Source of the DNA: Hirudinaria manillensis
Taxonomy: Eukaryota > Annelida > Clitellata > Hirudinida > Hirudinidae
Length of the DNA stretch: 64,000 nt
Assembly: GCA_034509925.1 (NCBI GenBank)
Contig: CM067526.1
Coordinates: 9,379,629-9,443,628, forward strand
Reading direction: 5' to 3'
Under the pieces are notes generated by a model. The model was not told the DNA's origin. It did no database searches and saw nothing but the letters and a program-made list of their open reading frames with translations. Numbering within the stretch: the stretch's first letter is position 1; each line of letters opens with the position of its first letter. The position numbers and the translations under genes are program-made. Positions 1 to 58,830 of the stretch are shown in pieces.

Positions 1-1
1 T

Positions 2-127: not shown

Positions 128-341
128 TGAGGTCAGATTTTTGATGGTTGCTTCTATTAATTTTTCTCCAGATCAGATTCAACGAATTGTAAAAGAAGAT
201 AATTAAGAATTTTTATGAATAAACAACTTATTTAATTGAATTAAGTCTTGATTGAGTTTGTTAATTGAATTGATTCAACAATTAAATGTGCATTTTGCTT
301 TATTCTAACTTTATTATTTTTGATAAACTTTTGTTAGACAT

Positions 342-524: not shown

Positions 525-535
525 CGTTAAATAAA

Positions 536-2674
536 ATGCCGTCGATTATCAAATTCACCGCCCTTTATGACGATAAGGTCGAGACGCCATCTTGTTACAT
601 GCTCCAAGTGAACGAAATAAAAATACTTTTGGACTGCGGTTGGAACGAGAGCTTTGACGTGCGCCTCGTCGAGAACGTCAAACCTCACGTCCGCGACATA
701 GACGCCGTGTTCCTCTCGTACCCCGACCTATATCATCTCGGTGCGCTGCCCTTCCTCGTGGCCAAGATGGGCCTGTCGTGCCCAGTTTACGCCACCGTAC
801 CGGTTTCGACCATGGGCCAGCTATTCATGTACGACGTCCACTCGTCCAAAGACGACGTGGAAGACTTTGATTTATTTTCTATCGACGACATCGACACGAC
901 ATTCGACAGAATCAGGCAACTCGCTTACGACGAGTCGGTCAGCGTTCTCGGCAGCAGAGGAACGACCCTGCAAGTGGCCGCCTTACCCGCAGGTCACATG
1001 GTCGGTGGAGCGATGTGGAAGATAGTTCAGGACGACGGAGAAGTCATTGTGTACGGAGTCGACTTCAATCACCGCAAAGAAAGACACCTGGATGGCTGCT
1101 CGTTCGGAGGCATTTTCCGACCTCAGCTTCTCATAACGGACTCCTTCTCTTCTGATCAGGTCCGACTAAAAAGAGTCTCCAAAGATGAACAGCTTGCTAG
1201 CACGGTTTTGAAGACGCTGGAGAACGGCGGGAACGTTCTCGTACCCGTGGACACCGCAGGCAGGGTACTCGAGGTGGCCTACATTCTCGAACAGATGTGG
1301 GAAAGAGAGTGTAGCTCTCTTACAAATGCCTACAAACTGGTACTGATGAGCCGCGTAGCTCACAGCGTCCTGCAATGTGCCAAGTTGGTAAAATCGGAGT
1401 GGATGTCCGAGAAGATCAGAAAAGCCATGGAGACGCATCTGACCGACGATTTTCAATTCAAGAACCTTCGAATATGCCACAACATGGAGGAATTGGATCG
1501 CATGTCGGGCCCTAAAGTGGTCTTGGCAAGTAGTGCCGACATGGAGAGCGGCTACTCTAGAGACTTGTTCGTCGATTGGTGCGAACGACCCAACAACGCT
1601 ATCATACTCACCAGTCGTACTTCTCCTGGAACCTTATCGCGTGCGCTCATCGACAATCCAAATCAGAAATCAGTCACCCTCAAGTTGAAAAAGAAAATTC
1701 AAATCTCCGAAGCCTCTGAAATCAGCGAATACCGAAAGAGGAGGCAAGCCGAGCGCATCAAGATCGAGACCGCCGAGGACGTCTCGAGCCCGGATTGCAA
1801 AGACGACTCGGAAGATCCATGCACGGCGTTCAGGATCGGCCACGACTACACCGTTAAGAGACCCCTGAAACGAAAAGCTCAAAACTACCCAAAACTGTCG
1901 AAGAGACCGTGCCCCATGTTCCCTCTGGACAAATGCTACTACAAACAATCGGATTACGGGGCACATTACGACCCCCAACTCTTCTCTAAAGACACGGTCA
2001 CGAATAACAAACGGATCGAAGAAACACCCGTAGAAGAAGAGGTTGAAAAACCGATGACCAAGAGCGTGTCGGTCGATCGCACTCTTGGAATCTCTGCTGG
2101 TCTGACTTTCATTGACTTTGACGGAAAATCGGACATTGAGTACTTGCAGAGTGTGGTATCGCAGATGAAACCTCTGCAAATTATACTTGCCAAGGGAGGA
2201 TCCTCTTTGTCGTCAAAACAAGAGACGGAACTTTCCAAGAGCTGCAACAAAATAATCTTCCCAAAATCGAACGAAGTCATCGACGCCACAATTCGTTATT
2301 GCGACTCAGTGGTAGAAGGGTCTGATGCTTTGATGAGATCTTTGCAGTGGAAGAAGGTGAAGAACTACGAGGTAACCTGGATCGATTCCGTGGTCCAAGA
2401 GGTGGAGGAGGGTCAGGTCCGACTGGAACTACCGCCTCCGGAGGTGATGGAGTCGAAAGACAAAATCTTCGTCAACAGTCAGAGACTCTCCTCATTCAAA
2501 GAACACCTGGTGAGGCGAGGCTTCAAAGTCGAATTTTCCACCGACGGTCTCGTCGTCAACGACAGGACGAAATTAAAAAGAAACGAAACCGGGTGTCTGC
2601 TGCCGGAAGGGTCTTCTTTCGCGGAAACGTTGCAACTGATGCAAGAAATTTCCTGCTTCTTCGTCACGCTGTGA
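536..2674 (+). CDS. CPSF2: CPSF2 / CPSF100, cleavage and polyadenylation specificity factor subunit 2, array copy 2
   Basis: Uninterrupted 712-codon frame starting MPSIIKFTAL, where the human protein starts MTSIIKLTTL. Order: metallo-beta-lactamase fold (about residues 1-240), beta-CASP domain (about 240-365, containing NVLVPVDTAGRVLE), a lysine/arginine-rich linker (about 370-480) and a conserved C-terminal domain beginning near residue 520. The zinc-binding HxHxDH motif is absent: the site reads SYPDLYHLGALP, as expected for CPSF100, the inactive partner of the CPSF73 endonuclease in the pre-mRNA 3' processing complex. At 712 residues it is somewhat shorter than human (about 782), mainly in the linker. 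It has no introns, unlike every other multi-domain gene here, and is clearly GC-richer than the surrounding DNA. The ATG was chosen by alignment to the family N-terminus. Confidence 0.95.
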   Translation: MPSIIKFTALYDDKVETPSCYMLQVNEIKILLDCGWNESFDVRLVENVKPHVRDIDAVFLSYPDLYHLGALPFLVAKMGLSCPVYATVPVSTMGQLFMYDVHSSKDDVEDFDLFSIDDIDTTFDRIRQLAYDESVSVLGSRGTTLQVAALPAGHMVGGAMWKIVQDDGEVIVYGVDFNHRKERHLDGCSFGGIFRPQLLITDSFSSDQVRLKRVSKDEQLASTVLKTLENGGNVLVPVDTAGRVLEVAYILEQMWERECSSLTNAYKLVLMSRVAHSVLQCAKLVKSEWMSEKIRKAMETHLTDDFQFKNLRICHNMEELDRMSGPKVVLASSADMESGYSRDLFVDWCERPNNAIILTSRTSPGTLSRALIDNPNQKSVTLKLKKKIQISEASEISEYRKRRQAERIKIETAEDVSSPDCKDDSEDPCTAFRIGHDYTVKRPLKRKAQNYPKLSKRPCPMFPLDKCYYKQSDYGAHYDPQLFSKDTVTNNKRIEETPVEEEVEKPMTKSVSVDRTLGISAGLTFIDFDGKSDIEYLQSVVSQMKPLQIILAKGGSSLSSKQETELSKSCNKIIFPKSNEVIDATIRYCDSVVEGSDALMRSLQWKKVKNYEVTWIDSVVQEVEEGQVRLELPPPEVMESKDKIFVNSQRLSSFKEHLVRRGFKVEFSTDGLVVNDRTKLKRNETGCLLPEGSSFAETLQLMQEISCFFVTL

Positions 2675-3082
2675 TGAGGTCAGATTTTTGATGGTTGCTT
2701 CTATTAATTTTTCTCCAGATCAGATTCAACGAATTGTAAAAGAAGATAATTAAGAATTTTTATGAATAAACAACTTATTTAATTGAATTAAGTCTTGATT
2801 GAGTTTGTTAATTGAATTGATTCAACAATTAAATGTGCATTTTGCTTTATTCTAACTTTATTATTTTTGATAAACTTTTGTTAGACATTTGATTTTCGAA
2901 ATGTATGGTTTAGCAAAAGTTTTAAGCAATTGTTTACTTTTGCGCCCCCGTAATTTTTTGATTAAAAAATTTATTAATATTCAGAATCTTTTGCGTCGAC
3001 CTGCTGGTCGCGGCGCAAGCTCTATCCCAATACTCAGCCAGCGAATCGTAATTAACTGCTCGAGTTTCTAGCGTTAAATAAA

Positions 3083-5221
3083 ATGCCGTCGATTATCAAA
3101 TTCACCGCCCTTTATGACGATAAGGTCGAGACGCCATCTTGTTACATGCTCCAAGTGAACGAAATAAAAATACTTTTGGACTGCGGTTGGAACGAGAGCT
3201 TTGACGTGCGCCTCGTCGAGAACGTCAAACCTCACGTCCGCGACATAGACGCCGTGTTCCTCTCGTACCCCGACCTATATCATCTCGGTGCGCTGCCCTT
3301 CCTCGTGGCCAAGATGGGCCTGTCGTGCCCAGTTTACGCCACCGTACCGGTTTCGACCATGGGCCAGCTATTCATGTACGACGTCCACTCGTCCAAAGAC
3401 GACGTGGAAGACTTTGATTTATTTTCTATCGACGACATCGACACGACATTCGACAGAATCAGGCAACTCGCTTACGACGAGTCGGTCAGCGTTCTCGGCA
3501 GCAGAGGAACGACCCTGCAAGTGGCCGCCTTACCCGCAGGTCACATGGTCGGTGGAGCGATGTGGAAGATAGTTCAGGACGACGGAGAAGTCATTGTGTA
3601 CGGAGTCGACTTCAATCACCGCAAAGAAAGACACCTGGATGGCTGCTCGTTCGGAGGCATTTTCCGACCTCAGCTTCTCATAACGGACTCCTTCTCTTCT
3701 GATCAGGTCCGACTAAAAAGAGTCTCCAAAGATGAACAGCTTGCTAGCACGGTTTTGAAGACGCTGGAGAACGGCGGGAACGTTCTCGTACCCGTGGACA
3801 CCGCAGGCAGGGTACTCGAGGTGGCCTACATTCTCGAACAGATGTGGGAAAGAGAGTGTAGCTCTCTTACAAATGCCTACAAACTGGTACTGATGAGCCG
3901 CGTAGCTCACAGCGTCCTGCAATGTGCCAAGTTGGTAAAATCGGAGTGGATGTCCGAGAAGATCAGAAAAGCCATGGAGACGCATCTGACCGACGATTTT
4001 CAATTCAAGAACCTTCGAATATGCCACAACATGGAGGAATTGGATCGCATGTCGGGCCCTAAAGTGGTCTTGGCAAGTAGTGCCGACATGGAGAGCGGCT
4101 ACTCTAGAGACTTGTTCGTCGATTGGTGCGAACGACCCAACAACGCTATCATACTCACCAGTCGTACTTCTCCTGGAACCTTATCGCGTGCGCTCATCGA
4201 CAATCCAAATCAGAAATCAGTCACCCTCAAGTTGAAAAAGAAAATTCAAATCTCCGAAGCCTCTGAAATCAGCGAATACCGAAAGAGGAGGCAAGCCGAG
4301 CGCATCAAGATCGAGACCGCCGAGGACGTCTCGAGCCCGGATTGCAAAGACGACTCGGAAGATCCATGCACGGCGTTCAGGATCGGCCACGACTACACCG
4401 TTAAGAGACCCCTGAAACGAAAAGCTCAAAACTACCCAAAACTGTCGAAGAGACCGTGCCCCATGTTCCCTCTGGACAAATGCTACTACAAACAATCGGA
4501 TTACGGGGCACATTACGACCCCCAACTCTTCTCTAAAGACACGGTCACGAATAACAAACGGATCGAAGAAACACCCGTAGAAGAAGAGGTTGAAAAACCG
4601 ATGACCAAGAGCGTGTCGGTCGATCGCACTCTTGGAATCTCTGCTGGTCTGACTTTCATTGACTTTGACGGAAAATCGGACATTGAGTACTTGCAGAGTG
4701 TGGTATCGCAGATGAAACCTCTGCAAATTATACTTGCCAAGGGAGGATCCTCTTTGTCGTCAAAACAAGAGACGGAACTTTCCAAGAGCTGCAACAAAAT
4801 AATCTTCCCAAAATCGAACGAAGTCATCGACGCCACAATTCGTTATTGCGACTCAGTGGTAGAAGGGTCTGATGCTTTGATGAGATCTTTGCAGTGGAAG
4901 AAGGTGAAGAACTACGAGGTAACCTGGATCGATTCCGTGGTCCAAGAGGTGGAGGAGGGTCAGGTCCGACTGGAACTACCGCCTCCGGAGGTGATGGAGT
5001 CGAAAGACAAAATCTTCGTCAACAGTCAGAGACTCTCCTCATTCAAAGAACACCTGGTGAGGCGAGGCTTCAAAGTCGAATTTTCCACCGACGGTCTCGT
5101 CGTCAACGACAGGACGAAATTAAAAAGAAACGAAACCGGGTGTCTGCTGCCGGAAGGGTCTTCTTTCGCGGAAACGTTGCAACTGATGCAAGAAATTTCC
5201 TGCTTCTTCGTCACGCTGTGA
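3083..5221 (+). CDS. CPSF2: CPSF2 / CPSF100, array copy 3
   Basis: Encodes exactly the same 712-residue protein as the copy at 536-2674, 2547 bases further on, and I saw no base difference between the two coding regions where I compared them. The same domains apply: degenerate metallo-beta-lactamase, beta-CASP, basic linker, C-terminal domain. It is the last complete unit. Its 3' flank carries at least two single-base differences from the flanks of the earlier units, near 5360 and 5383, before homology stops near 5408. Whether all copies are expressed cannot be seen; each has the same roughly 400-base upstream segment. Confidence 0.95.
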   Translation: MPSIIKFTALYDDKVETPSCYMLQVNEIKILLDCGWNESFDVRLVENVKPHVRDIDAVFLSYPDLYHLGALPFLVAKMGLSCPVYATVPVSTMGQLFMYDVHSSKDDVEDFDLFSIDDIDTTFDRIRQLAYDESVSVLGSRGTTLQVAALPAGHMVGGAMWKIVQDDGEVIVYGVDFNHRKERHLDGCSFGGIFRPQLLITDSFSSDQVRLKRVSKDEQLASTVLKTLENGGNVLVPVDTAGRVLEVAYILEQMWERECSSLTNAYKLVLMSRVAHSVLQCAKLVKSEWMSEKIRKAMETHLTDDFQFKNLRICHNMEELDRMSGPKVVLASSADMESGYSRDLFVDWCERPNNAIILTSRTSPGTLSRALIDNPNQKSVTLKLKKKIQISEASEISEYRKRRQAERIKIETAEDVSSPDCKDDSEDPCTAFRIGHDYTVKRPLKRKAQNYPKLSKRPCPMFPLDKCYYKQSDYGAHYDPQLFSKDTVTNNKRIEETPVEEEVEKPMTKSVSVDRTLGISAGLTFIDFDGKSDIEYLQSVVSQMKPLQIILAKGGSSLSSKQETELSKSCNKIIFPKSNEVIDATIRYCDSVVEGSDALMRSLQWKKVKNYEVTWIDSVVQEVEEGQVRLELPPPEVMESKDKIFVNSQRLSSFKEHLVRRGFKVEFSTDGLVVNDRTKLKRNETGCLLPEGSSFAETLQLMQEISCFFVTL

Positions 5222-5408
5222 TGAGGTCAGATTTTTGATGGTTGCTTCTATTAATTTTTCTCCAGATCAGATTCAACGAATTGTAAAAGAAGATAATTAA
5301 GAATTTTTATGAATAAACAACTTATTTAATTGAATTAAGTCTTGATTGAGTTTGTTAATTGGATTGATTCAACAATTAAATGTACATTTTGCTTTATTCT
5401 AACTTTAT

Positions 5409-41620: not shown

Positions 41621-44600
41621 TTAATTTGTTAATTGATTTAATTTAAATGCTCTGTGTTCCACTGGCTTCAACGAGTAGAATGGTGATTTTTCCCCAATTA
41701 GAATGACTTCTGCTTCCATGTAGGTGAACCTAAAATAATTTAAGATTTTTGTGAAAACTTCCCTGGGGTCAATGAGCAATTTTCAAGTGAATGCAAAATC
41801 AACAGCTTATTTTAGGTCCAATTAACTCAATTTAGAAAAAAGCATACAAATGTCTTGTAATTTCTGCAAGCTTCATTATTTAAAAATGGTGCCTGGTGTA
41901 GTAACTATCGTTTGAACATATTTAATAAATAACAGGTTTTCATGCATAAACTTGAAGCTGTGTCAATGCTTAAGGGACTGGTGACTCATCAGTGGTGAGC
42001 TTCACAAATAAAACAGTATTGTATGTTATGGTGCATGTAGTAATAGAATCAGCTGCACAAAATAGCAGTTCATGCTGATCCCAACTTTATGAAAACGACT
42101 ATTGTACCACGCTGTTGCCTGTAGAAAGAATCATGATTTACCAAAATTGGGTGTTACTGCTATTGCAACAACATGGTGCAAATGTTTATAATCATAAGGT
42201 TTATGAAAGAAATTTTAAAGCAAAAACTCCAGTATTTTGGCTATTAATATCAGTCCTTAAAAACAAATGAACATGTCTTAAAGTTCAGTTTTGGCAATCC
42301 TGCATGAACCATGAAAATAGTCTCAAAAGCCATAGGTGGAGGACTCCTTATTTAGATGAACAAACATCTTTCACTTTTTGAAGACATATTTTACATATAT
42401 ATATATATGTAATATATATATAATGAATTAAAAGTTGAAGCTCACCTTAGTGTATTTTTGTGCAATCCACGAATTTTAAACTTTGGAGAATATAGGAGAT
42501 TGAAACATCTGCACAGACTTTCAAAAGTTTTGCTGTCCACAGACTGCTCAAAATACACTACATGTGTTCCTCTGAAAGACGATATGTAATCATATGTAAA
42601 TTGATTATGGGTATCCCTTAATCTCTAAGAGGATGGCTTTTAATTTCAATGAGATTGCTTGAGATCAAGCTAGCATTCAATTACTGTTTCTATAAAAAAA
42701 AAACATTGGATTGAAAATAGGCATACTTTGTCAACTTCAATCCAGGTACTTGAATGCAGGATTCAAGATCCAAGAGTGGCACTAAAGATGCATGTTTTAT
42801 CAAATTCTCCAACACACTGTCATACTCAGATTTCTTAAGATTTGATATACTAGCAAGTTTTACTGTCTTAGACCTGCAAAGCAGAAGAGATTCATTTAGA
42901 AAGCTAAATAAGTCCAATAAATATTTACATTGTCATCCATTACATTTTACATATTACATGAAAAATATTTATAAAACAAGTTTCAACACTTTTTTTACAT
43001 TAACTGGCAGTTATTTCATTATCAAATTACAGATGGGTAACATAGTATAGTATTGGCACCCATGCTATTATATTTAGTTGTAATAAATTTCTATTGTTTC
43101 AGGTAGCAAAACACAATTATTACATTATTTTTAGTACATTTCAAAATAAAAATGTGTTTTTCTTCAGTAAAATTGTATTAAATTTCTCCAAAGCTAAGCA
43201 TAGCTTAGCAATGTATCCAGATTAAGGAGTAGAATCTACAAATGTGGATGTGCTCAATTATAAATATATATTAACAGTATATATTATAGTGGCTCATATA
43301 TTAAACATTTGTTTGAAAATATTAAGACCGACTTTTTCGATTGGTTCCATTAAAAAACTATTAGCAAATTTTGTAAAAGAAATATTAAATTAATATTTAA
43401 TATTTAGAGGTCACTCAAAACTACCAAAGTTTTCTCATATGAGACTAATTTCTGATCTCCTTTTTTGGCTGTCTTTACTTTGTGATCCAAAAAAGATCTT
43501 GTCTTCATAAACCATAATCCATAGTCCCACTTTGTCAAATTGTCAAACCGCTTTCAATTGGGGCCAAAAAATGAAGTTTGTTTCTTGAGTCTAGGTTTTG
43601 CAGTTCCTTATTGTCTTTTGACCATTCCATCAAAATATCCCACAACAAAATAACTTCGTCAAATTAGCTTTGTTTAATTTATACGAATATACCTAAATGC
43701 AATATCAATCAGTGGCCTTTTTGGCTAAAAAGGAAATTTTTAATAAGAACAGGACATAGTACACGTGGACATTTAAAGGTTTTATTTTAAACAAAATTCA
43801 ATCTGTGAGCACAACCTTCCCTGGAGCTCTTCAAGTGCCTGAAGACCCACCTCTTCAGGAAATCATAACAGAGGCAGAAAAACACACAAGGCGCCTCTGA
43901 CGCTACGTACATGGAACCAAACTATTATACTTATTATTATTTATTAAAAGTTAAAATTATGAGCCAAGCCTTTGAAACCATACATATGATTCTCCTTTTG
44001 TCATACTCCTTTATTATATTTTGAAGTCTAACAGAGGCACCTTGACAACATTAAAAAAATCTTTAAAGTGATGTCTGTCATCTACTGTTCTACATTCCCT
44101 CATCAGGGATTTGTTTGTTTCACAGGACTAAAACAAATTTCCACGCATTAACAAACCATTTGCAATGGCCTTGAAAGAGGTCCATACACACTCATCAGAT
44201 CAGAAGAAATCATTAGACAACCTAAGAAACACACATAAAAGTCAGGCAAGTTCATGTATGATGTATTGCACTTCATTTGATGTATATTGCATGTCAATTG
44301 GTACACAACATGTTGAAATCTTCAATGCATACATTATGAAAAGAAGATCAATGTTAATGAATTTCCCAGATACCATCAGGTACTCATTAAATATTCAAAA
44401 GAAGGACCAACAAGAAATATATGTGCTTACTGAAAAAACATTAGAAATGTTCCAATAGATGGTAATATTTATTAATCTTGTAACAATGTAGTTACATTTA
44501 TATTTATTATGTTCATGAAAAAAGATTCATTACATTACAATACTAAGTTTGGAATCTTTGTGAATTTGATCTTCTGGAGAAAGTACAATTATGAGTGACA

Positions 44601-45468
44601 TTTAAACAAAGCTGTATTAAATTGTCCTAATTGGACTCAAAGCATTTTACTTAAACATTGGTATTCATCTGGGGGTGGGGGAAGTTTTCCCAGGAAGTGA
44701 ATTTTAAATTAAATTTAAAACAAGTCCACCCTTAATGCATGTAATTATACTTTTCTTAGGGGTGACCAAATAATTAAACTAATAGAGAATGTGAAGATAT
44801 TTTTTTAAAGAATGAATGAAATTGAGAAATCTGAATAGCTAACGTGCTATATCTCCTAGGCTTGTTGAAATAATCCCTAATAAATTCAGCATGTTCAGTC
44901 AGTCCCAGATATTCTCTCCTAATGGTTCGTGACACGTCAGGAATCAACATCTCCTTACCCTCTGGTAATTTCCAACCAAACCAAGATCTGTAGAATATGA
45001 TTAAACTTGTACGTTGGCAGAATGAATTGCATGTGCAATGACACATTGTATTGTATCATTAGTTAATGGAATACCCAGACAGATAATTTGCACTCATTAT
45101 TGGCTATTATGCTAAGAAAGAATCCTAACAAACAAATGAAGTGCAATACATCATACAAATGGAGTGAGGTGCATCTTTTGCTTATTCAAATAATCATAGA
45201 ATACAAACCTAACACTGCAACAATCCAGCATATTGTTCACCATTTGTGTACCATAGAATGATTTTTTCAGCATAAAACCTGATCCTGGGAATGTCTCCCC
45301 CCTATAAACCAAGTCTGGTCTTTGGGAATGTCCGTCAAATCCTATTTAATGTTAGCAACAGTCACAATGTGATTCACTTAAAGAATATAGGGTTCATTCA
45401 TAACAATTGGCAAGCATGCATAATGTCAGTCATAATGTAAATAATTACAATAACAACTGAATCTCAGT

Positions 45469-45504
<36 letters not shown>

Positions 45505-45878
45505 GTAATGGACAGTTATAATGACAACAACAGTTCAACAACTTTTTATAATATTTAATAATAGTAACCAATTTATTAATATAGAGCTAAAGAGCTAAAA
45601 ACCAGAATAAGTAATGAAATGCCAAACCGTGCTCATTGAAGGCCGTGACTCCGGCAAGAGAGTCGTCTTCGTCGAGAACCTCAAGGGTTTGCCCAAAAAA
45701 GGACAGCAGGTCTGCTGCTGGCAACACCTCCTCTTCCAGGAAGATTGCATATTTCTGAAATTGAATGAGGCACTTTTAGCAATGTTAACAAACTTCAAGT
45801 CTTGAGATAATCTATAGTCCATAATTATAAATGCAAACAAATGTCCATGTCTAATTAGAATAATTAATTTCTTGCAAG

Positions 45879-45911
<33 letters not shown>

Positions 45912-48900
45912 TGTTACATTATCATATATTTCTTACATATAATTAATCAGGTAAATCAATAATAATCATGGATATTATCAATATTATAATAAAATAACAA
46001 CAAATAGCAATTGATGCCACTAATGAATAACTCAAAAGATGATTTAGCAAATCATTCAGAAGAACAAAAGGAAGAATTAACTGCACTAGGAAACATGATC
46101 CAAACAAGATCCAAAGCATCCCTCATGAGATCTGCAAATAGATTAAAAAATGGTTTCAACATTCAAAATGACTCATGAAGCAGCCAATGTCTAGAACTTC
46201 AAGAACCAAAGCTAGTTAGTATTGACAACAACAGAACTAGGGCACCCTGCACCTATTAATATATTATGTGATTATATGATGATTGACTGAATTTTGCTTT
46301 GACTTAATCTAATTTAAACACATCTAATTCGTTTAGTTAAGATTGTGAATTTTTGCCTAAAACAAACAGGAAGAAAATTTAGAATTGAGCTGATTATTGA
46401 TAACATTGGCTGAATGAATGAGGATATCTGATAAATCGATATAAATAAAAGTATAATCAGAGTAGAAAGGAATTCTTACTTATGTATTTTGTGCTGCTTT
46501 TCAATTGACGAATTGTGATGTTGAACAGGGAAGCAATATTGCGTGACTCTTCAAACTTCTCATCAGACATCATCTTCATTGCACATTATCAGATAATTAT
46601 TATTATTAATATTAATATCCTTAACTTTAATAATGTTCTTAACAATCAACGCTGACTGACCACAACATAATTGATGTCCAGGCCTGGAACCTTGAAGAGA
46701 GCTTCAAGCTGTTTTACAGTTGATATTTGACTCAGACCTAATTTCACATACAAATTAATGTAAATATAGTTGATTTTATGATTCATACATACGTGAATTA
46801 TTCATTTGCATAGCATCGGAGCCTCAATTCATTTATATAGCGCTCCTTCATGAGGACACTCGTGGCAGTGTGAGTCAGGCCATTACTGCTTCGGCAAGCG
46901 GGATCGATAACATCCGAGCTAATTCGCAAGCCGTGCAATATGGTAACCGACTTGAATTTTTTAAATATGAAATTCAATACAGCAACTTGAAAATCAATTC
47001 TATTGTAACTTAAGATAAAAAAATTATTCAGAGTTATTAAACAAGGTTGTCTAATAATAACCTGGTATGAGTACAATTGGTGTTTTGTATATCAATGGTC
47101 CTTCAAATGTTTTGTTTGGCAATGGGAGGATCTTTGGGTGTTCATCAATATTTTTTGCTAAAAGTACACCCAGAACTTATGCATCAAACAGCAAACATTG
47201 AAGAAACAATAACAATAATAAATAAATAAATAAAAAATAAATAAATAACTAATAATAACTAATATGAAATACCTGAACAAAAGTCTTCATAGCCATCATA
47301 AGTCTTACAAAAATTTCTCCTTGGTATGTTCTTCTTGAGACTTAAATCAATCTTCTTGTCCTGACCCTTGACTAACGTTTTAACATTAAATAAACACTTA
47401 AGTCTCAATTAATAATATTGTATTCACAGCAAAATAAATTTACAATTTTTCTCGATGCAAAACGTTGACGAGATAGAATAAGGCCAGCTGTCTTTCCCAG
47501 CTGGTTCGATCTGAATGAGACAACAAAGAGAAAATGGCATCAGATGTTACAGAACAAAGCAAAAGCTTTAAGCACTGACATCTTCGTAGGGAGTGAACCC
47601 CTTGAGTCCTGACTTTCCGACAAAGATCCAAACGTCTCTGAAGCCAAGATCTTTGATAAAGTTGCTGCCAAAAGAAGCCAGAAGATCCATGGCTTTACTG
47701 CTCAGCCTGTAAGGAGACAAAGACGACATTGAATTTTGTTTCTCATGTTTTGTTTCTTCAGAAGATTGCTTAGGCCATGACACAAATATTTGTGGTTTCG
47801 TGATTATTTTGAGCAGTACATTCTCTGTGATTTTGAAATGCAAGGCATTAGTTGCACCAATTAAGTGACAACTGACGAGCAATTACGAAAAAAAATTCAA
47901 CGAACGCAGTTTTTGCTTCGTCATGAGCCAGTGCAATAATCATTTCATTATTTTTCAAGCCCAGCAGAAACTCCTCCAATTTTGTGCTTTCTGTTTGAAA
48001 TTAAATTTAAAAACATATTATAAAAATCCATTGCAATGTTTTATAACCCACATTTTAAGAATACTTTTATGTTATTGGAATCTCAAAGTGAGACTGAATC
48101 TCAAAGTAGTTTATTTATGTAAATCTTACTAGTTAGATGTATTTATTAAGTTAGCAAGTAAAAAGCAAGATGCATATAAATACCTGAATCTAGGCTTAAA
48201 TGGATTAATTGTACGATTGCAATTACAACATTCAAGAAAGAATGAACAATGGAAGAAATAAAAAACAATTTAACTCAAGAAAAGTTTGTTTACAAATTCC
48301 ATGTTTGCTCTGTAAAAAAAAAACAATTTATGACTTGTGTGGGAGAGATTGCATTTTACATTACTTAAAGTTGCCTGAATCATCTGCATATCATTCTCTC
48401 ATTTCTTAGAATGATTAATGCCAAAAAATTGAGGCCAATCAGAAGACAATGATTTTAAGACAGAGACACAGTAATTTATATTAATAAATTTATTAATAAA
48501 GATTTAGAAAAGGAATTGAAGACACACAACAGATGCATAGAATGATCACTGAGCATACATTGATCAGTGAAAGAAGAAACATCGAAGCAATGTCTTAATT
48601 AATTGGTCAATTATTAAAAAAAATCTAAATGACATCCTCACTCTCTGCACTCTCGTAAGTGTCAAACCTCTGCACATCCAGAACAGCACCACTGCTGGAG
48701 TCGATGGAGACCACAGAAATGCCACGACCGGGGTCGTTCAGATCATTTGAAATCACGCTGTCAACAAAAAGGCCTGTTTTTGCATGTGATGTTTATGATG
48801 TTAAAATGTGTTAAAATTAGTTTAACTTCATGTTCCATCACCGTAAGAAACTCCCAGACTTGTCAAAAATCATCATTACCATCAGAAACAACATGTGCTT

Positions 48901-51900
48901 TACATTAATTAAGCAGTGCTAGACTTTAATGCATTAAATTAAGGAAAATATTTAACAACACAAGTATTTAATGCTTTTAATTATTTATTTATTTATTTAC
49001 AGAATAACATTATTACATTGCATGTACATCATGTATAACATGCATGTTATTCCCCTGCACAAAACTGATTCCAAGGACAATATCACTAACTACAGACCAA
49101 TTTCAATCTTGCCATACTTCTCCAAGTTCTTTGAAAAGGCAATCTTCAATAGAACTACATCATTTCTTAATAAATACTCAATAATTAAAGATGGCCAATT
49201 CGGATTTCGACAGAATCACTCAACTTACATGCCCATATCTCTTATCCACTCAAAAATATCTTATAAATTGGAACAAGGCCAATCAACTATCGGGGTATTT
49301 CTGTTCTTGGCAAAAGCTTTTGACACGGTCAACCATAAAATCCTGTTGGAGAAACTTCATCATTACGGCGTCCGGGATAAATGCTTGCTTTGGTTCCAGA
49401 GTTACTTATGTGGTCGAACCCAGCAAGTCTTCTTCAGCAACACCCTTTCCTCCATGCTGCCAATCTCTCTAGGTGTGCCGCAAGGCTCTATCTTGGGACC
49501 ACTGCTGTTTATAATCTACGTCAATGACATGTGTAATTCCTCTAACAGACTGGAATTCTTGTTGTTTGCTGATGACACAAATGTGTTTTTATCGGATCAG
49601 GATATCGACAGGCTATATGTCACCATGAACGCTGAACTGCAAAATGTCACAAAACGGTGCAGGGCCAACATTCTATCTCTCAACGTTAAGAAGACTGTCT
49701 ACATGCTGTTTCATAAAGCAAGAAAGAAACTGGTCCTGGAAAATTATAACATTCTTATCGGCGATATTATTCTTTCTCGTGTAGACACCTGTAAATTTCT
49801 AGGCATTTATATTGACCATCACCTCACATTCAAACATCATATCCAATATCTTACTAATAAGATTTCAAAAAATATCGGGATTATTTCACGTATCCGTCGA
49901 TATATCACTTCTACTATTGCCATCTCTTTATATTACTCATTTATATTTCCATACTTGAACTACTGCAACCTCATCTGGGCATCAAACTACTCATCTTATC
50001 TATGTCCTCTGCTTAATCTACAAAAGAGATACTTACGCATAGCCCTACGCCTGCCCTACACTGCCCATACTGAACCCACTTTTAGAAAATTCAAAATTCT
50101 CAAAGTCCATCAAATAAATTACTTCCAGGCTGGTATTTGTATGTTCAGGCACGACCATAATATGCTTCCACATTCTTTCCATAAAATCATTTCAGCACCT
50201 CCAACCTCACATCCCTACGATCTCAGACAAGCCCAGAAATATAAACCCCCCTTCTCAAAATCCAACACTTTTCTTAGATCTATTCAATGCTCAGGCCCCA
50301 ACATATACAATAAAATTCCTAGTATTATAACCCAGCATTCCAGCTTATATGCCTTTAAACATCACTTAAAAAATTTCATAATCAATTCACCATTCCACCA
50401 CTAATCCCTTTTTCAATATCCGACTTATTCTTGACACTTTACTCATGTACTACGTATCACATTTATTTATGTCGTAAACGGTTGGCCACCCAGCGGGATG
50501 TAATCCCTTCTGGCCTACTGGTGTTATTATTACTGTGCTTTTTTCATTGAATAAAGAGAATCAGTGACAATTTTTTATGCATGTACATGTTGAACATCAC
50601 ATGTAAGGGCATGGGAAATTTGAGTACATTGAACCACGATCAGCCATTGTTCTAGCAGACAATCCCAGGGGAGTTACCTCCCATTTATGGTATTATAAAG
50701 ACTGAACAATCTCACTCACTATCTTCCACGAAAGCAGACCTTTGGGAGTTCAACGTTTTTATTTCCCGTGTAAACATGAACTGGCAGCAGATCATCCGGA
50801 CAGCTCTCCGGCAGGCCACAGTTTATCCAATAGTCTCCAAGTTTAACCTGATCATCAAACAATCGAACTGAAAGAGTCTCACTCTATTAACGCTTCAATT
50901 AATTCAATGATTCTGGAATTTGTAATCGTGATTTTTAACGATGATGATGCACGAAAGAAAAATCATTAGCCGATATCCAGCCAAATATATTTATTTTGAA
51001 AGGTGAGCAATTTATCCTAACCTTGTCTTCTATTTGTGTTCTTTCAATCTTGGCCACCTGTTCATCCGAGCTGCTTTTGTTTGCTTCTCTAGTGATGCCC
51101 ACTGAAAACATGAACTAATCAATTAAAGTGAAGTAATTATCAATTGATGAAGTCATAAAAACTAAAATAATGCTTCTCTTTAGTTGTTATTACATCATTT
51201 TGAGTAATAATGACCAAAATGTCGGATATAATTTAGTAAAAAATTTTAGGCAGTAAAATGACTAACACAAATAAGAATAATTTATGATAATTAAAAAAGC
51301 ATCTTCACTGAATGGATGTCACTGAAGTTTAAATTGGTAGCACAACTAATGCAGGCATTAATAAAATGTCAGAAAAAAAACTAATTCATTCATAATTAAT
51401 TTAAATGCATCACAGATGTGGATATATGTTCTTAAAAGTGTCATCCTTTCATTTCTCTAATATTCGGTAATCTCTAATCTCGTGACTACAGAACTCCTTT
51501 TGCCACATCCAGTATTAAATGTCACTCCATCATCTGTTTGGGTCCCACAGTTTATTTTAAAGTTTCTACACATACATCTTGCCAATCTAATCTTTGTTTT
51601 TTCAAGCTGCTATGCAAACAATTAATAATTGACTCATCATAATTTTCATAGTTTAATATTCACCGAATCTGTATATTTTTTCAAATTATTAAATTGTAGG
51701 ACATCCACCAGCAGGAGTACTCGCTTAGGACGATCAGACATAGTTTGCCTATTGCTTAATTTTCCTTCGTAAGTGCACGCACTTGAATTCCTTATTGTTT
51801 TATCTCGTGTTCAGCACATTTTCTGTGATTAGTTTGACTTTTTTTATTGATTCCCAAATAAAGATAAGGCATGTAAACAATGTTATGTAAGCAAAAAAAT

Positions 51901-54900
51901 TCAAAGATCAGAGCATCATGTAGTGTTTCCAACTAGTATGACTTGTGATATAAAGTGTAATAAAAATCTGTCAATAAGTAACTAACGAGGAACAGAAAGA
52001 CATCCCTCAATGAATGCTTCTCCTGCGTATACCTCACCATCCTGTCTCTTTACCAACTATAAAAGCAAAATTTGGCTGTCCATAATTTAAAAACCACATA
52101 AAGAGACCATAAAAAAAATTAGCATAAAATATGCTACATTCATAACTGACTCATTATCAAGTTTTAATCTGATGGCTTTCTACCAATAACAATAATAACA
52201 ATGATATAAAAATATCATGCCATAGGTTACTTCCTTAGAGGGAATAATTCCTTTCAGGCAACCTTGGTTTCACTATTATATTTTGTTCTTTTCCAATTTG
52301 TGTGGTGTTGTTAATTTTGGTGTCTCCAAAAAGATGAATAAATAAATAAAAATCAGAAAAGATTTAGGAAATCACCTGTTCAATAGCTTTTGAAGGAGGT
52401 ACCAGGTTTTGCTGGCCAATCATGACGAATGCATCTCGGAATTCGAGGTTACTCACGAATTCGCTGCCGAAAGACCGCATCAATTGCTTGGTGGCTGAAG
52501 ATAGACTGGCCATGCGAAAATGACACAAATGATTGAATGAAATGATGTACACGAGTATGACAAATTGTTATGTAAAAAAAGTAAAAATCTGATTATCTGA
52601 TAACATTATTGATTCCAAGCAGCAAAACATCAAAAGGGAACAACTCACTGCAGTGAAGCTTCATTTGCACTCGAGAGGAGGACAATGTCGTGAACATCCA
52701 CACCCAACTTGAGGTATCTCTGCAGGATCTCGTCTGCTCAACAAGAAGATGACCTCAATTGAACATTTCAAAGAACTGCATAGTCCCTTGGATTCAATTT
52801 ATTATTTCTGCTTTTTTATTGAAACTCATTGAAAAAACCTAATTGCAAATTATAACTCAGAAGAAGACAAGAATCTGACCTAAGGGAAAAAAAACTGCAA
52901 GCAGATTTTATAGACACCAATTTCTAACAAAATTCATATCATAAGAATCAATAATAATCAATCATAAGAAATAAACTTGAATGTAGAATATTAAAAATAT
53001 GCCAATGCAATCATCACAAACCATTTTCATGAGTGTCAAATGCCCTAACATCATCCACATTCATTGAATTTCCTGCAGAACAAAGTGAATCCTAACTAAA
53101 CAAAAACTTTGTTTTTGTTAATAGTTTGAATTTATAAAAAATCTAAAGCAGAGGTATTCAACCTCGAAGTGTCCTGCCAAGGGGTATGCAATGGACTTCT
53201 TCACAATTATGTTTAGTTATGATGTTTTCTTAATGCCAACTGATCATATATAGAAACTATATAAGCCAATCAATGGACTTAACTGCACTGGAAGCATATT
53301 ACATTCACAAGTTTACCATGATTTATTTCATGAATTCAGATAAAATTTCAGCAGAATTTGTAATAAAAAATTGGAAATATTTCAACTTCATTAGGCATCA
53401 TCTTTAGTTGCTTAGCAGTCAGATAGATTTAGTGTCAGTTGTTTTTTTGTTAGATCAGATCCAAATAACTGAAAAAGAGCATCCAATTGCTTTCATGAGC
53501 ATTTTCAATAAAACCATTAGAAAGTCAAATTCTGAAATGGAGAAGCCCATTCAATTCGCTACATAAATCAGATTCCAGATTCTTTCACAAAAACTGGTGA
53601 TGCAAAGATGTTTTTTATTTTTAATGTTAAATAAATGTTTGCTTGAATTTAATATAGTTTCTAGTTTGTGGGAATAGATAATGAATAGATAGTGGGAATA
53701 AATAATGAAATGCATTCTTATTTGCATAGAACTGCATATTGACTGGGTTTTGACCTATAAAGAAAGTATGATTAAATGATGTTCGTGTTAATAGACCTAA
53801 ATAATGTCCAAAACACTTCAAATTTGGCAACAATATTGTCCATAAAAGGAACAAAATCAAATTTTATCTTTATTACAAAAAAATAATAATAAAACACCTA
53901 ATAATATATATATAACGTTAAAAACTATTAACTAATGATTTCTGAAGGATCTTACTCTCATTCAGTTGGCTTAAAAAAGTTGTGGTTGAATATCTTTGTT
54001 TCATGTTTTAAATGAAGTTATGAATAGCAAGATTATAAAGGAAATGAACATTAGTCAAGCAATTTTAAGCTAATCCATTATTCGTTTTATTCAATTATTA
54101 TTCAGTTTGTTGAATGCAATAAATAATTAATTAAGATTTATCATTAAAAACACCATTAGGGTTCCATAATTAATGGAATTGATTGCTGTAGTGGCCATCA
54201 CAAAATCAAGAATCAAATCAGAAAGAAACATATGTAAATGTCAACCAAGAGATGTAGAAAAACAAGCCATGAATTCTGTTCCACAAAAATTCACTAACCA
54301 TTTATCTTGACCAAATTTATTCCTCTTTTGCCATTATGTTTTTCAGGGGAAAAAATTCTGAATAAAGAATAGAAAGGTGATATTATTTTTTTTATTAGAT
54401 ATTATTCCAAGAGTTGTGTATCGCCATCAAAAAGGTATATAAAGTATAAGATACCATGTTAACCTTCTTTTTCTTTTTTTTTTACAATATTTGAGGTATT
54501 TTATTATCTCTTGACAGCTACAACCCTTTAACTGGCTTTACTGAAAACATGCTTAATTCAGCCTTCCTTTAGAAAGGATTTATGCCTTATTAAACAATAA
54601 AATTTTTTATCACTTCTTAGTTTACCTTTAGAATTCCTTAATGAACCTGATACCATCTGAAGGTACTTTTTAATAAAACTGACGTTTAGTGTCACTATCC
54701 AAGGGCTCTCCATTTTGCAGAATGGGTATCAAGTATTACATATAATGACTGTTGCAATTACTGCCAAGAATGCAAGAATATTATGCATTAGGCTAATCTG
54801 CAATACTAAAAATTATTACTTAAAATCAAACACTATTAAATATCAGAATTGTAATTGTAATCACACCAGTTCATTTGTAGAGCATTCTGAATGTGCTTTT

Positions 54901-57900
54901 CCATTTATATTTATGGCACTCCTCCATGACAACTTTTGGCAGTAAATCTGAGTTGCAAACATGACATACCACAACTGTTGCTGACAACATTGCATGCAAG
55001 AACCCAACCATCTGAGCTGACTCAATCTGTCTGCCCATTTACACAGCGTTATCACGTCGAGGTGCTTTGTGATGGTGCAGGCTGACTATTAAATGAGACA
55101 TGTAACTCTGTTGCCCTTGTGTTGCCTTTTAGCATCTCATGCAGTCATTATATGCATTTATACATCTTGCAGCCCAGAAAATAAGCTCATGTTAGAATGA
55201 TGTTTACTTTCTTGGATTCTGATTACAAAAGCAATCTGTCTTAAAATCTTGCCAATTTAAAATTGAAAGTATTAAACTTCCTTTCCTAAAACAAATTCAA
55301 CTTTCTGAATCATTGACATCCTGGTCACAGTTTTGACTGAGTTAAGTGAATCAAGAATTACATTTCTTTTATACATTTTTTCCCATTACATTACAGGGAA
55401 AAAATGTCATATATTCAGGCATTTCTGCTTCAAAATATGCAAATACTGTGGGAAGGAAACCACCATTGCCCATAAAAAAAATGTTGAAATTAGCCATTTA
55501 TAAATAATAAGAATGTAATAATGATTTCTAATAACAATAACAGGCATAAATAGAATCCTTCATTACCTATTATCACAGAGCATTTTTCACACCATGTTTC
55601 ATACCATAAAACCTCAGAAAAGATAACACACAAATAGAATTTGTGAGTCAATTAATAAGAATGAATTAAAATTGATCAATGACTCTCATATAAATATTTT
55701 CATGAATTTCATATAAAAGTTTGAATCTAATAAACCTGAAAATTCATGCTCCATGGCATTTCTGTTTGATCTTTTCAACTTTAGGTTTCCCAAAGTTTTA
55801 TTCAAAATATCACAAGTTATTTATCTCAGTATAATGAAATTGTGAAATTTGTAAATCTAATGTGTTTCATTACACCATTATGTCATATGAAAAGTTGGTC
55901 CACACAAATCAAGAACATATTTAGAACATTATCATCAAATTATATAATGTGCCTGTGCCAAAATTAAAAAGCACATTGCAAATGATAACGACAATTTAAT
56001 TCAAGCTTTAGAAAATGAAATTAATTATGATATAAAACAGGAAACACTAAAGTTTTATATGATTAGATTGTTATTTTTTAAAAATTTAACAAACTGCAAA
56101 GCAATACCCAGATATCATTGTTGTTGCTGCTATTCACTCAACTTGAACTACTAATAATACAAGCCATTGATGCATTGATGTACTTTTTCTTAATGCCTAC
56201 CATAAGAAGTTGGTTCTACTTATCTTGCTAGCTATAAGCTGTTTTAAAATCACTGGTGAGGAAAATTAACATCATCATAATTTACTAGATTTTAAAACTA
56301 ATTATTCAAAATATGATTTCTTTAATGCTCAATATTGCTCATAACTAAGCTTGAGTCGATGGTTAGAAACAATAACATCAATTTAATTCAAATAAAATAC
56401 AGGAAAATGTTATCAGTTTACAAATTTAAGCTCTTTTGACTATTACTCTATATTGAGAATTTGAAAAAAGTTATAGTTCAGTTTAAACAAACTTTATGAT
56501 TAAATCTTCTTCAATTTAAAAAATATATTAATAAATAATTTTATTGAGATTTTACATGAAAGAATTGGACACTCACACATATCCATTAAAGCAAATGGTA
56601 GGCTGGCCATCACTACCTACACCAGACTTCAATAAGTATGAGTATTGTCCAGCAATGCATGATGTGGGCTGTCCACAACTGCTGTTTCTTACAAGGACTA
56701 AAAAAGAAAGATCAAAAGGTGAAAGAAACTGAGGTAGTTGCTTTGCCAAATGGCATGCCTTACAAGCAGAAGTCAAACAAACAAACCTTCACCTTCAGGA
56801 TTTCTAAGCTCATTTGCTGATCCATCTAAGTAAATAAAAAAGATTCTAACTAATTACTTTGCTTCTAATTAAATATTAGGGTCATTTTTCTTGTCTGTGG
56901 CTGTTTGGCCACGTTTCCATACAAGTATTTAGAAAAGTGAGGATCTATGAATGGTAATATTGTTGACAGAAATGATGACGTGATATTTCATTAGATTATT
57001 TTATTATACCTCGATAAATACAAAAACACGACTGCTGCTGTTAATGATTAAACAATTCCGACCTGAACTTGAATGGCTCTTTTGAACAACCCCGTTGAGG
57101 ACGTATGAGTCCAGCAAGAAGACCGTAAAAAGCACACTTAACACCCATATGGAAAGATTTCTACAACCTTTCAATAAATTTAATGTGTAGGTTAATTACA
57201 TTTTAATATTATGTATATTATTACATTTTATATAACTAATGTAATGAATGAAGGATTGTAATTGTTATTAATATAGTATTATTGTGACATGACAACATCA
57301 TTTAGTGTTTCATTCGAAACTTTAATGATATGATTTTAAACTTAAAAAATAACTTGCTAATTAATAAAAATCAATTATATATGAGATAAACTTAATGAAT
57401 ATCTAATCAGCTCAATGTAAATTACAACATGAATTAAATGAATGTGAATTTAATAACTAGCAAATACATATATAAATTATAATGATTGAACTTTTTCACA
57501 ATCCATGTATTTTACACCTTAACTAAGCAAATTTAATTTCAAAACTGCCACAATATACCATTCTTAATCTTTATTCAACTTTATTATCTACATATAGTTA
57601 ATGTTTATATAGGACAGATGTATATTTAATGTCTTAACAGATGAGAAAATTGATCAAAATAAAAAAAAACTGTTTGAAGACTATGCAACTCTAAATGAAA
57701 AAGATTTACAAGTAATTTGAACTACAGGTTTGTTGTAAGTATTCGAAGCTTGCAGGGTTGGAAAAAAGTGGTTTGTTTAACTAATACTTTGAATATCTAA
57801 GGGCCTTTGCAATTAATAAAGCGAAAATTTAAGTCACATTCTAACCGAATTTCAGTGTTTAAATTTGTGAACCTACTTCCAAAATATTTTACAATACACC

Positions 57901-57934
57901 TTCTGTGGATCCGCGTCAATATCATTGGCCTCAT
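41621..57934 (-). CDS. POMGNT1-like type II membrane protein: two ILEI/FAM3-type stem domains plus GT13 domain
   Basis: About 25 exons, roughly 819 codons: 57900-57934, 57010-57160, 56793-56825, 56577-56697, 54299-54357, 53022-53072, 52649-52733, 52376-52505, 51987-52056, 51022-51101, 50730-50847, 48651-48773, 47906-47990, 47580-47706, 47273-47360, 47062-47157, 46661-46737, 46480-46573, 46082-46131, 45628-45754, 45209-45341, 44844-44987, 42727-42873, 42446-42571, 41621-41729. All phases agree except exon 2 to 3, where one base or a micro-exon is unaccounted for. Order: signal anchor (LSIWVLSVLFTVFLL), Cys module (SCGQPTSC...ICFNG), ILEI-1 (GKRGINLVKIN...FRDAFVMIGQ), Cys module (NCGLPESC...VCF), ILEI-2 (GRGISVVSID...FRDVWIFVGK), GT13 (KTPIVLIPG, FLEEEVLPAADLLSFF, MLIPDVSRTIRREY). 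Human POMGNT1, a Golgi enzyme extending O-mannose on dystroglycan, has a single stem domain. The metal-site and WDWDMW motifs are altered here, so activity is doubtful. Confidence 0.8.
43800..43885 (+). mobile_element. LINE tail fragment in an intron of the POMGNT1-like gene
   Basis: Matches the extreme C-terminus of the LINE at 28880-29690 (PSLELFKCLKTHLFRKS; compare PSPELFE). It is followed by an AT-rich 3' stretch. Only the last few dozen codons remain. Confidence 0.6.
44255..45157. repeat. Perfect 25-base inverted repeat flanking an exon
   Basis: 44255-44279 is the exact reverse complement of 45133-45157, about 850 bases apart. The arms flank exon 44844-44987 of the POMGNT1-like gene. 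They could be the ends of an old inverted-repeat element, or could pair in the pre-mRNA around the exon. Confidence 0.65.
45469..45506. repeat. (AAT)n microsatellite
   Basis: About twelve AAT units; a second, shorter run lies at 45882-45912. Both are in introns of the POMGNT1-like gene. Confidence 0.85.
46826..46930. repeat. Dispersed repeat with TTTATATAGCGC core, copy 1
   Basis: CATTTATATAGCGCTCC followed by TCATGAGGACACTCGTGGC and CAGTGTGAG matches the repeat at 61559 onward and, more weakly, at 54898 onward. It lies in an intron of the POMGNT1-like gene. Confidence 0.6.
48960..50560 (+). mobile_element. CR1/L2-like LINE reverse transcriptase, antisense in an intron
   Basis: An intact 477-codon frame (48971-50404) covers the RT domain from VIPLHKTDSKDNITNYRPIS to the element's C-terminus (IYNKIPSIITQHSSLYAFKH). 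The motifs include GQFGFRQNHST, LGVPQGSILGPLLF and the FADD box (FLLFADDTNVFL). Motif A reads GVFLFLAKAFDTVN: the aspartate expected before L-KAFD is phenylalanine, so the enzyme should be dead. The endonuclease is missing (5'-truncated). The 3' UTR contains a CCACCCAGCGGGATG segment and ends near AATAAAGAGAATCAG at about 50556. Still-open frame suggests a fairly young insertion, on the strand opposite to the host gene. Confidence 0.88.
53148..53220. mobile_element. Possible hAT-like terminal sequence
   Basis: CAGAGGTATTCAACCTCGA resembles the CAGNGGTTCTCAACC start of many hAT miniature elements. No second end was identified. Confidence 0.25.
54890..55090. repeat. Dispersed repeat with CATTTATAT core, copy 2 (two units)
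   Basis: Two units, starting near 54898 and 55036. The first shares GAGTTGCAAACATGACAT, ACAACTGTTGCTGAC, TGCATGCA and ATCTGAGCTGACT with the 61559 copy. Lies in a POMGNT1-like intron. Confidence 0.55.
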
Positions 57935-58596
57935 GTTGCATTAAATTGTAAATAGATCAGTTTCTATAAATTTCTCGTACGATATTTCATACAAAATAAG
58001 AAATATAAATAAAAGTAAATGTATATGTCATCAATAAATAATTCGATCCAAAACAAATCAGTTGAAGCCCCTCCTAAAAATCCAATAACTAAGCCCAAGT
58101 CTGAGGCTACGAACGCCAGTGATACACGGGGATCAACATACATGTTATGAATATGAATAGAAGGTGTGTAGTTAAACACTTATATTTTGGTATTTTGTGT
58201 GAACATGGCACTTAAATAATTACTTTATAAAAAACTGATAACTATAAGAATTATAAAAATGAGAAACAAAAATAGCTGAATCGATCATTTTCTTTATCTA
58301 TAAATTGGATTACTTCCATTTTCTTTGCTACATTTTATTTTTTTTTAGATTGTACAATCTTGATAGATTTCAGTTTTTGGTTTTGTTTAGATCAGATCTT
58401 TAATATAAGGTATATTTCGGTGAACTGGTTTTTAATCTTTTGCGAATAAGGTTTTTCGGCTAGTCGAAGTTTGTGTTTGGGTGTTGGGTAGTGATACACG
58501 CAATAACATTAATAAGAATAACGACTAAAATATGTTTTGACAATATATTGAAAATTTTTGTGATTGGGTTGTTTCATCATTCTTAAAGGTTGAAAG
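57935..58596. other. Divergent promoter region between the POMGNT1-like gene and SMIM15
   Basis: AT-rich spacer, with the two genes transcribed away from each other. A 41-codon plus-strand frame at 58027-58152 overlaps a hydrophobic minus-strand frame at 57964-58179; neither is recognisable. 58300-58596 probably contains the SMIM15 5' UTR. Confidence 0.45.
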
Positions 58597-58830
58597 ATGT
58601 TCGAGTCTTGGGACTGGCGCAAGATGCTCATGGACATAATTGTTTATGCTGGCACAGAGCCTTGGTCATTTGTTTACTACGTACTTCTTTTCTTGTCTCC
58701 ATTTTTCCTTGTTAGCGCTTATCTATCTTATCATCTAGCCAAACAGATTGAGGCTAAAGAAAAAGAAAAGAAAAAGAAGCTGAGAAAAGAGTCGAATATT
58801 TCCAAAGCAAGAAGGCAGAAAACTGAATGA
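58597..58830 (+). CDS. SMIM15: SMIM15, small integral membrane protein 15
   Basis: A single-exon 77-codon frame. It starts MFESWDWRKMLMDIIVYAGT, has one transmembrane segment (about residues 25-45, FVYYVLLFLSPFFLVSAYLS) and a long charged coiled tail (HLAKQIEAKEKEKKKKLRKE, then SNISKARRQKTE). The layout and the LAK-IEA-EKE-KKK and NI-KA-R signature match vertebrate SMIM15 (74 residues), a conserved protein of unknown function. An acceptor-like TTCTTAAAG just before the ATG suggests an upstream non-coding exon. AATAAA is at about 59244. Confidence 0.85.
   Translation: MFESWDWRKMLMDIIVYAGTEPWSFVYYVLLFLSPFFLVSAYLSYHLAKQIEAKEKEKKKKLRKESNISKARRQKTE

Follow-up and report, generated by a model that had tools for sequence, protein, structure and literature searches.

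A 64,000-nucleotide stretch of the annelid Hirudinaria manillensis genome (contig CM067526.1, positions 9,379,629 to 9,443,628, hereafter the window) contains a predicted gene on its minus strand, between positions 57934 and 41621, for a protein with two FAM3-type (ILEI) domains, or stems, followed by a GT13 glycosyltransferase-like domain related to that of POMGNT1, the enzyme of muscular dystrophy that acts as an O-mannose beta-1,2-GlcNAc transferase. With moderate confidence, we interpret it as one gene for a membrane protein resembling FAMP-1 of Caenorhabditis elegans, in which two FAM3 domains are joined to a probably inactive, POMGNT1-derived GT13 domain, and which would act as a lectin or adaptor on glycans bearing N-acetylglucosamine (GlcNAc). 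We infer that it is transcribed as a single unit, resides in the Golgi, binds sugar, lacks transferase activity and serves as an adaptor.

A predicted POMGNT1-like protein with two FAM3 domains

The spliced model has 26 exons, running from an ATG codon at 57934 to a stop codon at 41621, with GT-AG boundaries at all 25 introns and an open frame of 849 amino acids. Pfam searches of this protein recognise ILEI twice (PF15711; E 1.7e-39, 134.6 bits, cut-off 27), with per-domain E values of 7.8e-18 for the first stem and 8.8e-22 for the second, and one GNT-I match (PF03071; E 8.4e-10, 38.4 bits, cut-off 25.4). Two ILEI matches plus a GT13 match, all above curated cut-offs, are what an earlier note on this DNA, made from the letters and a list of open reading frames, had anticipated, and its description of two complete ILEI domains and a GT13-like domain on the minus strand at 57934-41621 is borne out.

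Among proteins of solved structure, the first stem is best matched by a FAM3 chain (FAM3C, 5lc2; E 2.8e-14), aligned from the first cysteine, and the second stem matches FAM3A (7ecq) at E 3.4e-24 and the POMGNT1 stem (5ggj) at E 3.5e-13. The C-terminal part is best matched by POMGNT1 (5ggf; E 8.5e-40), in agreement with the earlier naming of the protein as POMGNT1-like, and because it is far closer to POMGNT1 than to GnT-I (E 7.7e-07) it falls on the POMGNT1 side of the GT13 family. Residues 1-60 include a hydrophobic segment (maximum 19-residue hydropathy 1.95, and 2.48 in the C4 paralogue described below), and a type II membrane protein like POMGNT1 is therefore expected. The window protein thus has the type II anchor, FAM3-type stem and GT13 domain of POMGNT1, but with two stems rather than one. 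It does not have the isolated FAM3 domain that marks the FAM3 cytokine-like proteins, as the spliced model runs on into the second FAM3 domain and the GT13 part.

The predicted exon joins divide the protein along its domains. Exons 1 (57934-57873) and 2 (57160-57063) supply the ATG, a short basic N-terminus and a single hydrophobic segment, the putative type II signal anchor, and are followed by a post-anchor linker in exon 3 (56793..56825), which begins and ends in phase 1. The first FAM3/ILEI domain (51987..56697) occupies exons 4 (56697-56577), 5 (54357-54299), 6 (53072-53022), 7 (52733-52649), 8 (52505-52376) and 9 (52056-51987), and an inter-stem linker, exon 10 (51022..51101), is entered from exon 9 in phase 1. 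The second FAM3/ILEI domain (47444..50883) comprises exons 11 (50883-50720), 12 (48757-48642), 13 (47990-47906), 14 (47706-47580) and 15 (47510-47444). The GT13 domain (41621..47371) is spread over exons 16 (47371-47273), 17 (47157-47062), 18 (46737-46661), 19 (46573-46480), 20 (46131-46082), 21 (45754-45628), 22 (45341-45209), 23 (44987-44844), 24 (42873-42727), 25 (42571-42446) and 26 (41729-41621), the last including the stop codon. When the C4 paralogue is used as a guide on the window DNA, the spliced alignment scores 956.2, versus 75.1 for the reversed C4 protein, and recovers 18 of the 26 exons at both ends, including exon 9, as well as the 51987-51101 join between the exon 9 donor and the exon 10 acceptor. 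Exon 3, missed by this alignment, is the least certain exon.

Paralogues and related genes in the genome

Searching the genome (148 Mb in 23 contigs) with the window protein as query yielded an unlinked paralogue on contig C4 (hereafter C4), with two ILEI matches and a GNT-I match above the Pfam cut-offs. Its spliced alignment (score 932.8) extends over the two stems and on into the GT13 part, and 23 of its 24 introns, among them the inter-stem intron of 170 bases, are in the phase of their window counterparts. Another gene, C5, has one ILEI and one GNT-I match in Pfam, its exons downstream of base 6941 of the extracted locus being left out of the domain analysis. Alignment of the first stems to the DNA upstream of C5 gave scores of 62.3 for the window stem, in a match that ends on the known FAM3 start, and 36.4 for the C4 stem, with reversed controls at 31.0 and 35.0. 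Because these scores are either near the controls or located at the known FAM3 start, we take C5 to be a probable single-stem gene.

Two GnT-I-like genes are present, on C2 and C11. In exon-by-exon searches, from which a diverged gene could escape and in which the Pfam GNT-I model missed the window, C4 and C5 genes, no canonical POMGNT1 with intact residues was detected, either with that model (11 matches, all on C2 and C11) or with the catalytic part of human POMGNT1 (nine matches, on C11, C2, the window and C5), nor was an isolated FAM3 gene detected with human FAM3C (four matches: two in C4, one in the window and one in C5). Matches to the PMT family of O-mannosyltransferases occur at one place in the genome, and matches to DAG1 (dystroglycan, PF05454) at three (C10:9245664, C11:4974474 and C3:661501).

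A genome search with the Pfam ILEI model (PF15711) gave eight matches, six of them in other genes. These six include C8:219514-222039, C8:482679-494382, C8:1703057-1703317 and C6:3301247-3301399, several being clustered on C8. By eye, the genes concerned appear cysteine-rich and secreted and are unlike FAM3 or POMGNT1; three of the open reading frames have no Pfam match.

The two stems are full FAM3 domains of unequal character

Each ILEI block opens with a Cys-x5-Cys motif followed by ICF or VCF (CGQPTSC...ICF in exon 4 and CGLPESC...VCF in exon 11), which the earlier note had interpreted as a module duplicated together with the ILEI domain behind it. The motif is indeed present at both stems, but a separate cysteine module ahead of each ILEI domain was ruled out, as this segment aligns as the FAM3 N-terminus, where the FAM3 fold begins. 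From the Cys-x5-Cys start onwards, the first stem aligns with FAM3A, FAM3B and FAM3C and the second with FAM3A and FAM3C, whereas the alignment of the second stem with FAM3B begins four residues after that start. The last FAM3 cysteine is reached in all four printed alignments of the first stem and in two of the five of the second. The remainder of the FAM3 domain looks like something extra because the Pfam model of ILEI covers just 90 positions; judged by these alignments, the protein has two full FAM3 domains and no further module.

The proposed duplication of a whole block is supported at the level of exons, in that the splice phases of the two stems agree at all five comparable positions: phase 2 ending the first exon (exons 4 and 11), 1 ahead of the helix exon (6 and 12), 2 after it (7 and 13), 0 ahead of the last exon (8 and 14), and 1 at the end (9 and 15). 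Entry phases differ, exon 4 being entered in phase 1 and exon 11 in phase 0, and both linker exons (3 and 10) are entered in phase 1; intron 5/6 is present in the first stem only. The stems are 28% identical to each other over 162 residues, and each is 40-41% identical to its C4 counterpart. In an unrooted tree of nine domains, with a weakly resolved deep order, one split (99.6/100) separates the first stems of the window and C4 proteins from the remaining domains. Among these, the second stems are joined by the single C5 stem (86.7/83) and, one node deeper, by the stem of POMGNT1 (77.4/77). Because of this tree and the pattern of identities, the doubling appears to predate the separation of the window and C4 genes, and the stem of POMGNT1 more likely corresponds to the second stem than to the first.

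In the POMGNT1 stem, residues R129, D179 and R207 contact GlcNAc (PMC9802357). The corresponding residues are R, N and R in the first window stem and R, D and R in the second, and all three are kept in four of the five FAM3 domains of the window, C4 and C5 proteins, the exception being the first window stem. The published behaviour of FAMP-1 is similar in that its Fam3L2 domain keeps all three residues and binds GlcNAc, and Fam3L1, which is without two of them, does not (PMC9802357). These residues suggest that the second stem binds GlcNAc; the Asn that replaces Asp179 in the first weighs against the two sugar-binding stems envisaged in the earlier note.

The GT13 domain is probably a pseudo-glycosyltransferase

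We aligned the GT13 part of the window protein with those of C4, C5, the GnT-I-like genes on C2 and C11, human POMGNT1 and rabbit GnT-I, with C5, C2, C11 and rabbit GnT-I represented by partial sequences only. The window and human POMGNT1 domains are identical at 104 of 355 aligned residues (29%). At the columns of R117, H190, D213 and D291 of GnT-I, the first two being the numbers that we take to belong to the UDP-contact (uridine diphosphate) Arg and His, the window protein reads S/L/E/F, C4 reads N/F/E/F and C5 reads D/V/G/E; both of the GnT-I-like genes read H/D/D at the columns they cover (H190, D213 and D291). In GnT-I, D213 is the sole metal ligand, D291 is the likely base, and a conserved His and Arg touch UDP (PMC7014118).

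The metal-ligand position lies in the motif LEEEV, the DxD equivalent in exon 21 (45628..45754, minus strand); it is Asp in POMGNT1, C2 and C11, Glu in the window and C4 proteins and Gly in C5. The change from Asp to Glu is mild, and Glu may still serve. At the catalytic-base motif, in exons 22-23 (44844..45341, minus strand), the WDMW of POMGNT1 reads WFGW, with the base Asp replaced by Phe, and is preceded by CCS.RS in both the window gene and C4. As aligned, loss of the catalytic base is firm. With Phe at the base, and with neither the UDP-contact Arg nor the His kept at the aligned positions of the window and C4 proteins, transferase activity is unlikely, which speaks against the idea in the earlier note that two stems guide an active enzyme. 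These changes are common to two paralogues and are therefore no recent accident, and the window GT13 domain is probably a pseudo-glycosyltransferase.

Alternative explanations

The inter-stem splice from exon 9 to exon 10 (51987/51101) is both the weak point of the model and the sensible place to divide it. The boundary at 48773 that the earlier note had considered is not, as this position is within intron 11, 16 bases ahead of exon 12 and midway through the second ILEI domain. Left unspliced, exon 9 reads EGCLSVPR-stop, with an in-frame TAG at 51984-51982 directly after the first domain, which could then be the end of an isolated FAM3-like membrane protein lying next to a single-stem POMGNT1-like gene. 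This ending resembles those of FAM3 chains, which have EGCI near their end, there is an AATAAA at 51848, and the inter-stem intron of C4 contains an ATG-started frame with a Leu-rich run (hydropathy 2.14). The TAG is, however, formed by the splice donor itself (C|GTTAGT), exons 9 and 15, the last of each stem, both leave in the phase 1 in which exon 10 is entered, and the unspliced exon 9 of C4, which keeps the linear order, continues for 11 codons longer before a stop. A second anchor was sought in the 885-base window intron, among ATG-started frames of at least 19 residues within the intron only, and none is hydrophobic enough (best hydropathy 1.35). RNA folding in the region of exon 9 gives no signal (z 0.54). 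One gene is likelier than two because C4 repeats the architecture with 23 of 24 introns in the same phase, the inter-stem intron included, and we regard two adjacent genes as quite improbable. The single gene and a short FAM3-like form could also coexist as alternative transcripts.

The other alternatives accept one gene and concern the fate of its GT13 domain. In the picture drawn by the earlier note, the protein would be an active POMGNT1-like transferase, with two lectin stems that each engage a site on a densely O-mannosylated substrate. The GT13 fold clearly derives from POMGNT1, the DxD region is still acidic (EEE), with Glu able to act as metal ligand, the genome has PMT and dystroglycan family matches, and with canonical POMGNT1 not found its work may fall to another protein. 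We nevertheless consider activity of this kind rather unlikely given the Phe, Ser and Leu at the base, the UDP-contact Arg and the His, with similar changes in C4, and the Asn at D179 of the first stem. Catalytic changes would also be expected of a decaying pseudogene that lost these residues without selection, and a reverse-transcriptase-like open reading frame does lie inside intron 11. Against decay, the 26 exons are free of stops and frameshifts, and 158 of the 267 residues identical between the window and C4 proteins use different codons. Differences between the two genes are most frequent at third codon positions in both stems (111 and 119, versus 52-81 elsewhere) and in the GT13 N-lobe (121 versus 89 and 74); decay would sit better with the weak third-position excess in the C-lobe (87 versus 75 and 75) and its absence in the anchor region (33 versus 36 and 28). 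We judge a pseudogene to be highly improbable.

Several observations weigh against our preferred interpretation of one gene with an inactive GT13 domain. The support from C4 is not independent because C4 was modelled with the window protein as guide, the first C4 intron differs in phase, and window exons 10 and 11 correspond to a single C4 exon. In the reciprocal alignment, eight window exons (1, 3, 4, 10, 11, 22, 24 and 26) are missed or shifted at an end, the 3' end of exon 10 being placed at 51058 versus 51022 and the start of exon 11 at 50847 versus 50883, and two additional short exons are proposed. The Leu-rich frame in the C4 intron, although it stems from an ATT repeat, is free of stops up to the next exon, so that a separate start is possible. 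The catalytic changes are read from an alignment in which the window domain and POMGNT1 share 29% identity, and at the base position C5 carries Glu, which is acidic. The window GT13 domain also keeps E211, the first DxD residue, and W290, the Trp ahead of the base, both of which contact GlcNAc in GnT-I (PMC7948508). Among GT-A enzymes the final DxD residue may be Asp or Glu, some enzymes work without a DxD motif, and donor contacts are mostly poorly conserved even in active members (PMC7948508). FAMP-1 is described without a membrane anchor (PMC9802357), whereas the window and C4 proteins have a hydrophobic N-terminal segment.

A proposed role for the protein

A FAMP-1-like protein of this kind would span the membrane in type II orientation, probably in the Golgi. 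Its second FAM3 domain, having the three residues that grip beta-linked GlcNAc in the stem of POMGNT1, would be the likely sugar-binding part; the first, in which one contact residue is changed, may more likely have a structural role or bind a partner. The GT13 domain may have been retained as a folded scaffold with its chemistry probably lost. Fukutin is bound and assisted by the stem of POMGNT1 (PMC8478517), and the window protein might in a comparable manner act from the membrane as a lectin or adaptor for glycans that carry GlcNAc, perhaps presenting substrate to another enzyme.

More tentatively, and as a possibility that we judge somewhat less likely than not, the genome may contain a conserved subfamily of POMGNT1-derived pseudo-glycosyltransferases. 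It would consist of at least three genes, in which the GT13 fold is kept, a new motif, CCS.RSWFGW, replaces the catalytic base (in two of the three), and the proteins have become membrane lectins, double-headed in two of the three. They might carry the classical FAM3 lectin function and chaperone the building of O-mannose glycans without transferring sugar, in a genome with PMT and dystroglycan matches but with no canonical POMGNT1 or isolated FAM3 gene detected in our searches.

Neighbouring features

The open reading frame in intron 11 (482 amino acids, 48956-50404, plus strand), which by eye we take to be reverse-transcriptase-like, is antisense to the gene within the span of the second FAM3 domain and is not part of it. 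Directly upstream of the POMGNT1-like gene, on the opposite strand, is a small open reading frame (58594-58830, plus strand) that presumably resembles SMIM15. Positions 1-5361 of the window, and the DNA upstream of it, contain a CPSF2-like gene (open reading frames 509-2674 and 3056-5221; CPSF2 6urg in the PDB, E 8.3e-171) in a head-to-tail array with a 2547-base unit. The sequence of positions 1-2814 recurs unchanged at 2548-5361, and a 40-base probe matches five times between -7040 and 3148; the array is either a recent amplification or an assembly artefact. An innexin search of the genome gave 46 matches over many contigs, indicating a large innexin family.

Relationship to known proteins

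GnT-I/MGAT1 (1foa, 2am3) belongs to the same GT13 family as the window protein but is a much weaker match (E 7.7e-07), and to our knowledge it has no FAM3 stem. FAM3A, FAM3B and FAM3C (7ecq, 2yop and 5lc2) are related to both window stems, which align with them from or near the C-x5-C start, but they are isolated domains without a GT13 part. Human POMGNT1 shares the type II anchor, the FAM3-type stem and the GT13 domain; it differs in that its catalytic residues are intact and its single stem has no FAM3 cysteines, where the window protein has changed catalytic residues and two stems with those cysteines.

The architecture, which the earlier note held to be undescribed, has already been reported: tandem FAM3-like domains with a POMGNT1-like C-terminus are found in FAMP-1 (M70.4) of C. 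elegans, many other nematodes and amphioxus (PMC9802357), and M70.4a is listed as the Caenorhabditis orthologue of POMGNT1 (PMC8478517). It ties the FAM3 cytokine-like proteins to POMGNT1, a relation that has been called obscure (PMC9802357), and the occurrence of double- and single-stem forms in one genome, with inactive-looking GT13 parts, helps to order the evolutionary steps. Among the open-licence PMC texts consulted in part, without the PMC9802357 supplement in which FAMP-1 is aligned with the catalytic domain, no statement was found that FAMP-1-like proteins have lost GT13 catalytic residues, and no paper on inactive GT13 or POMGNT1 pseudoenzymes was found among them by title or start of abstract. 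If the GT13 domain is indeed inactive, part of the biology of FAMP-1 in worms (thermotaxis) may rest on lectin function alone.

FAMP-1, at approximately 70 kDa, compares with 849 amino acids for the window protein, and the likeness is drawn from the published description of FAMP-1 rather than from its sequence. As described in PMC9802357, it nevertheless agrees with the window protein in several respects: both have two tandem FAM3-like domains, best matched by FAM3 chains in the window protein; the C-terminus of each shows kinship with the catalytic domain of POMGNT1 or part of it, by weak similarity in FAMP-1 and at E 8.5e-40 (5ggf) here; in both, no isolated FAM3 gene was found in the same genome, here by exon-by-exon search; and in both, the GlcNAc-contact residues are complete in one stem, with at least one of the three missing from the other.

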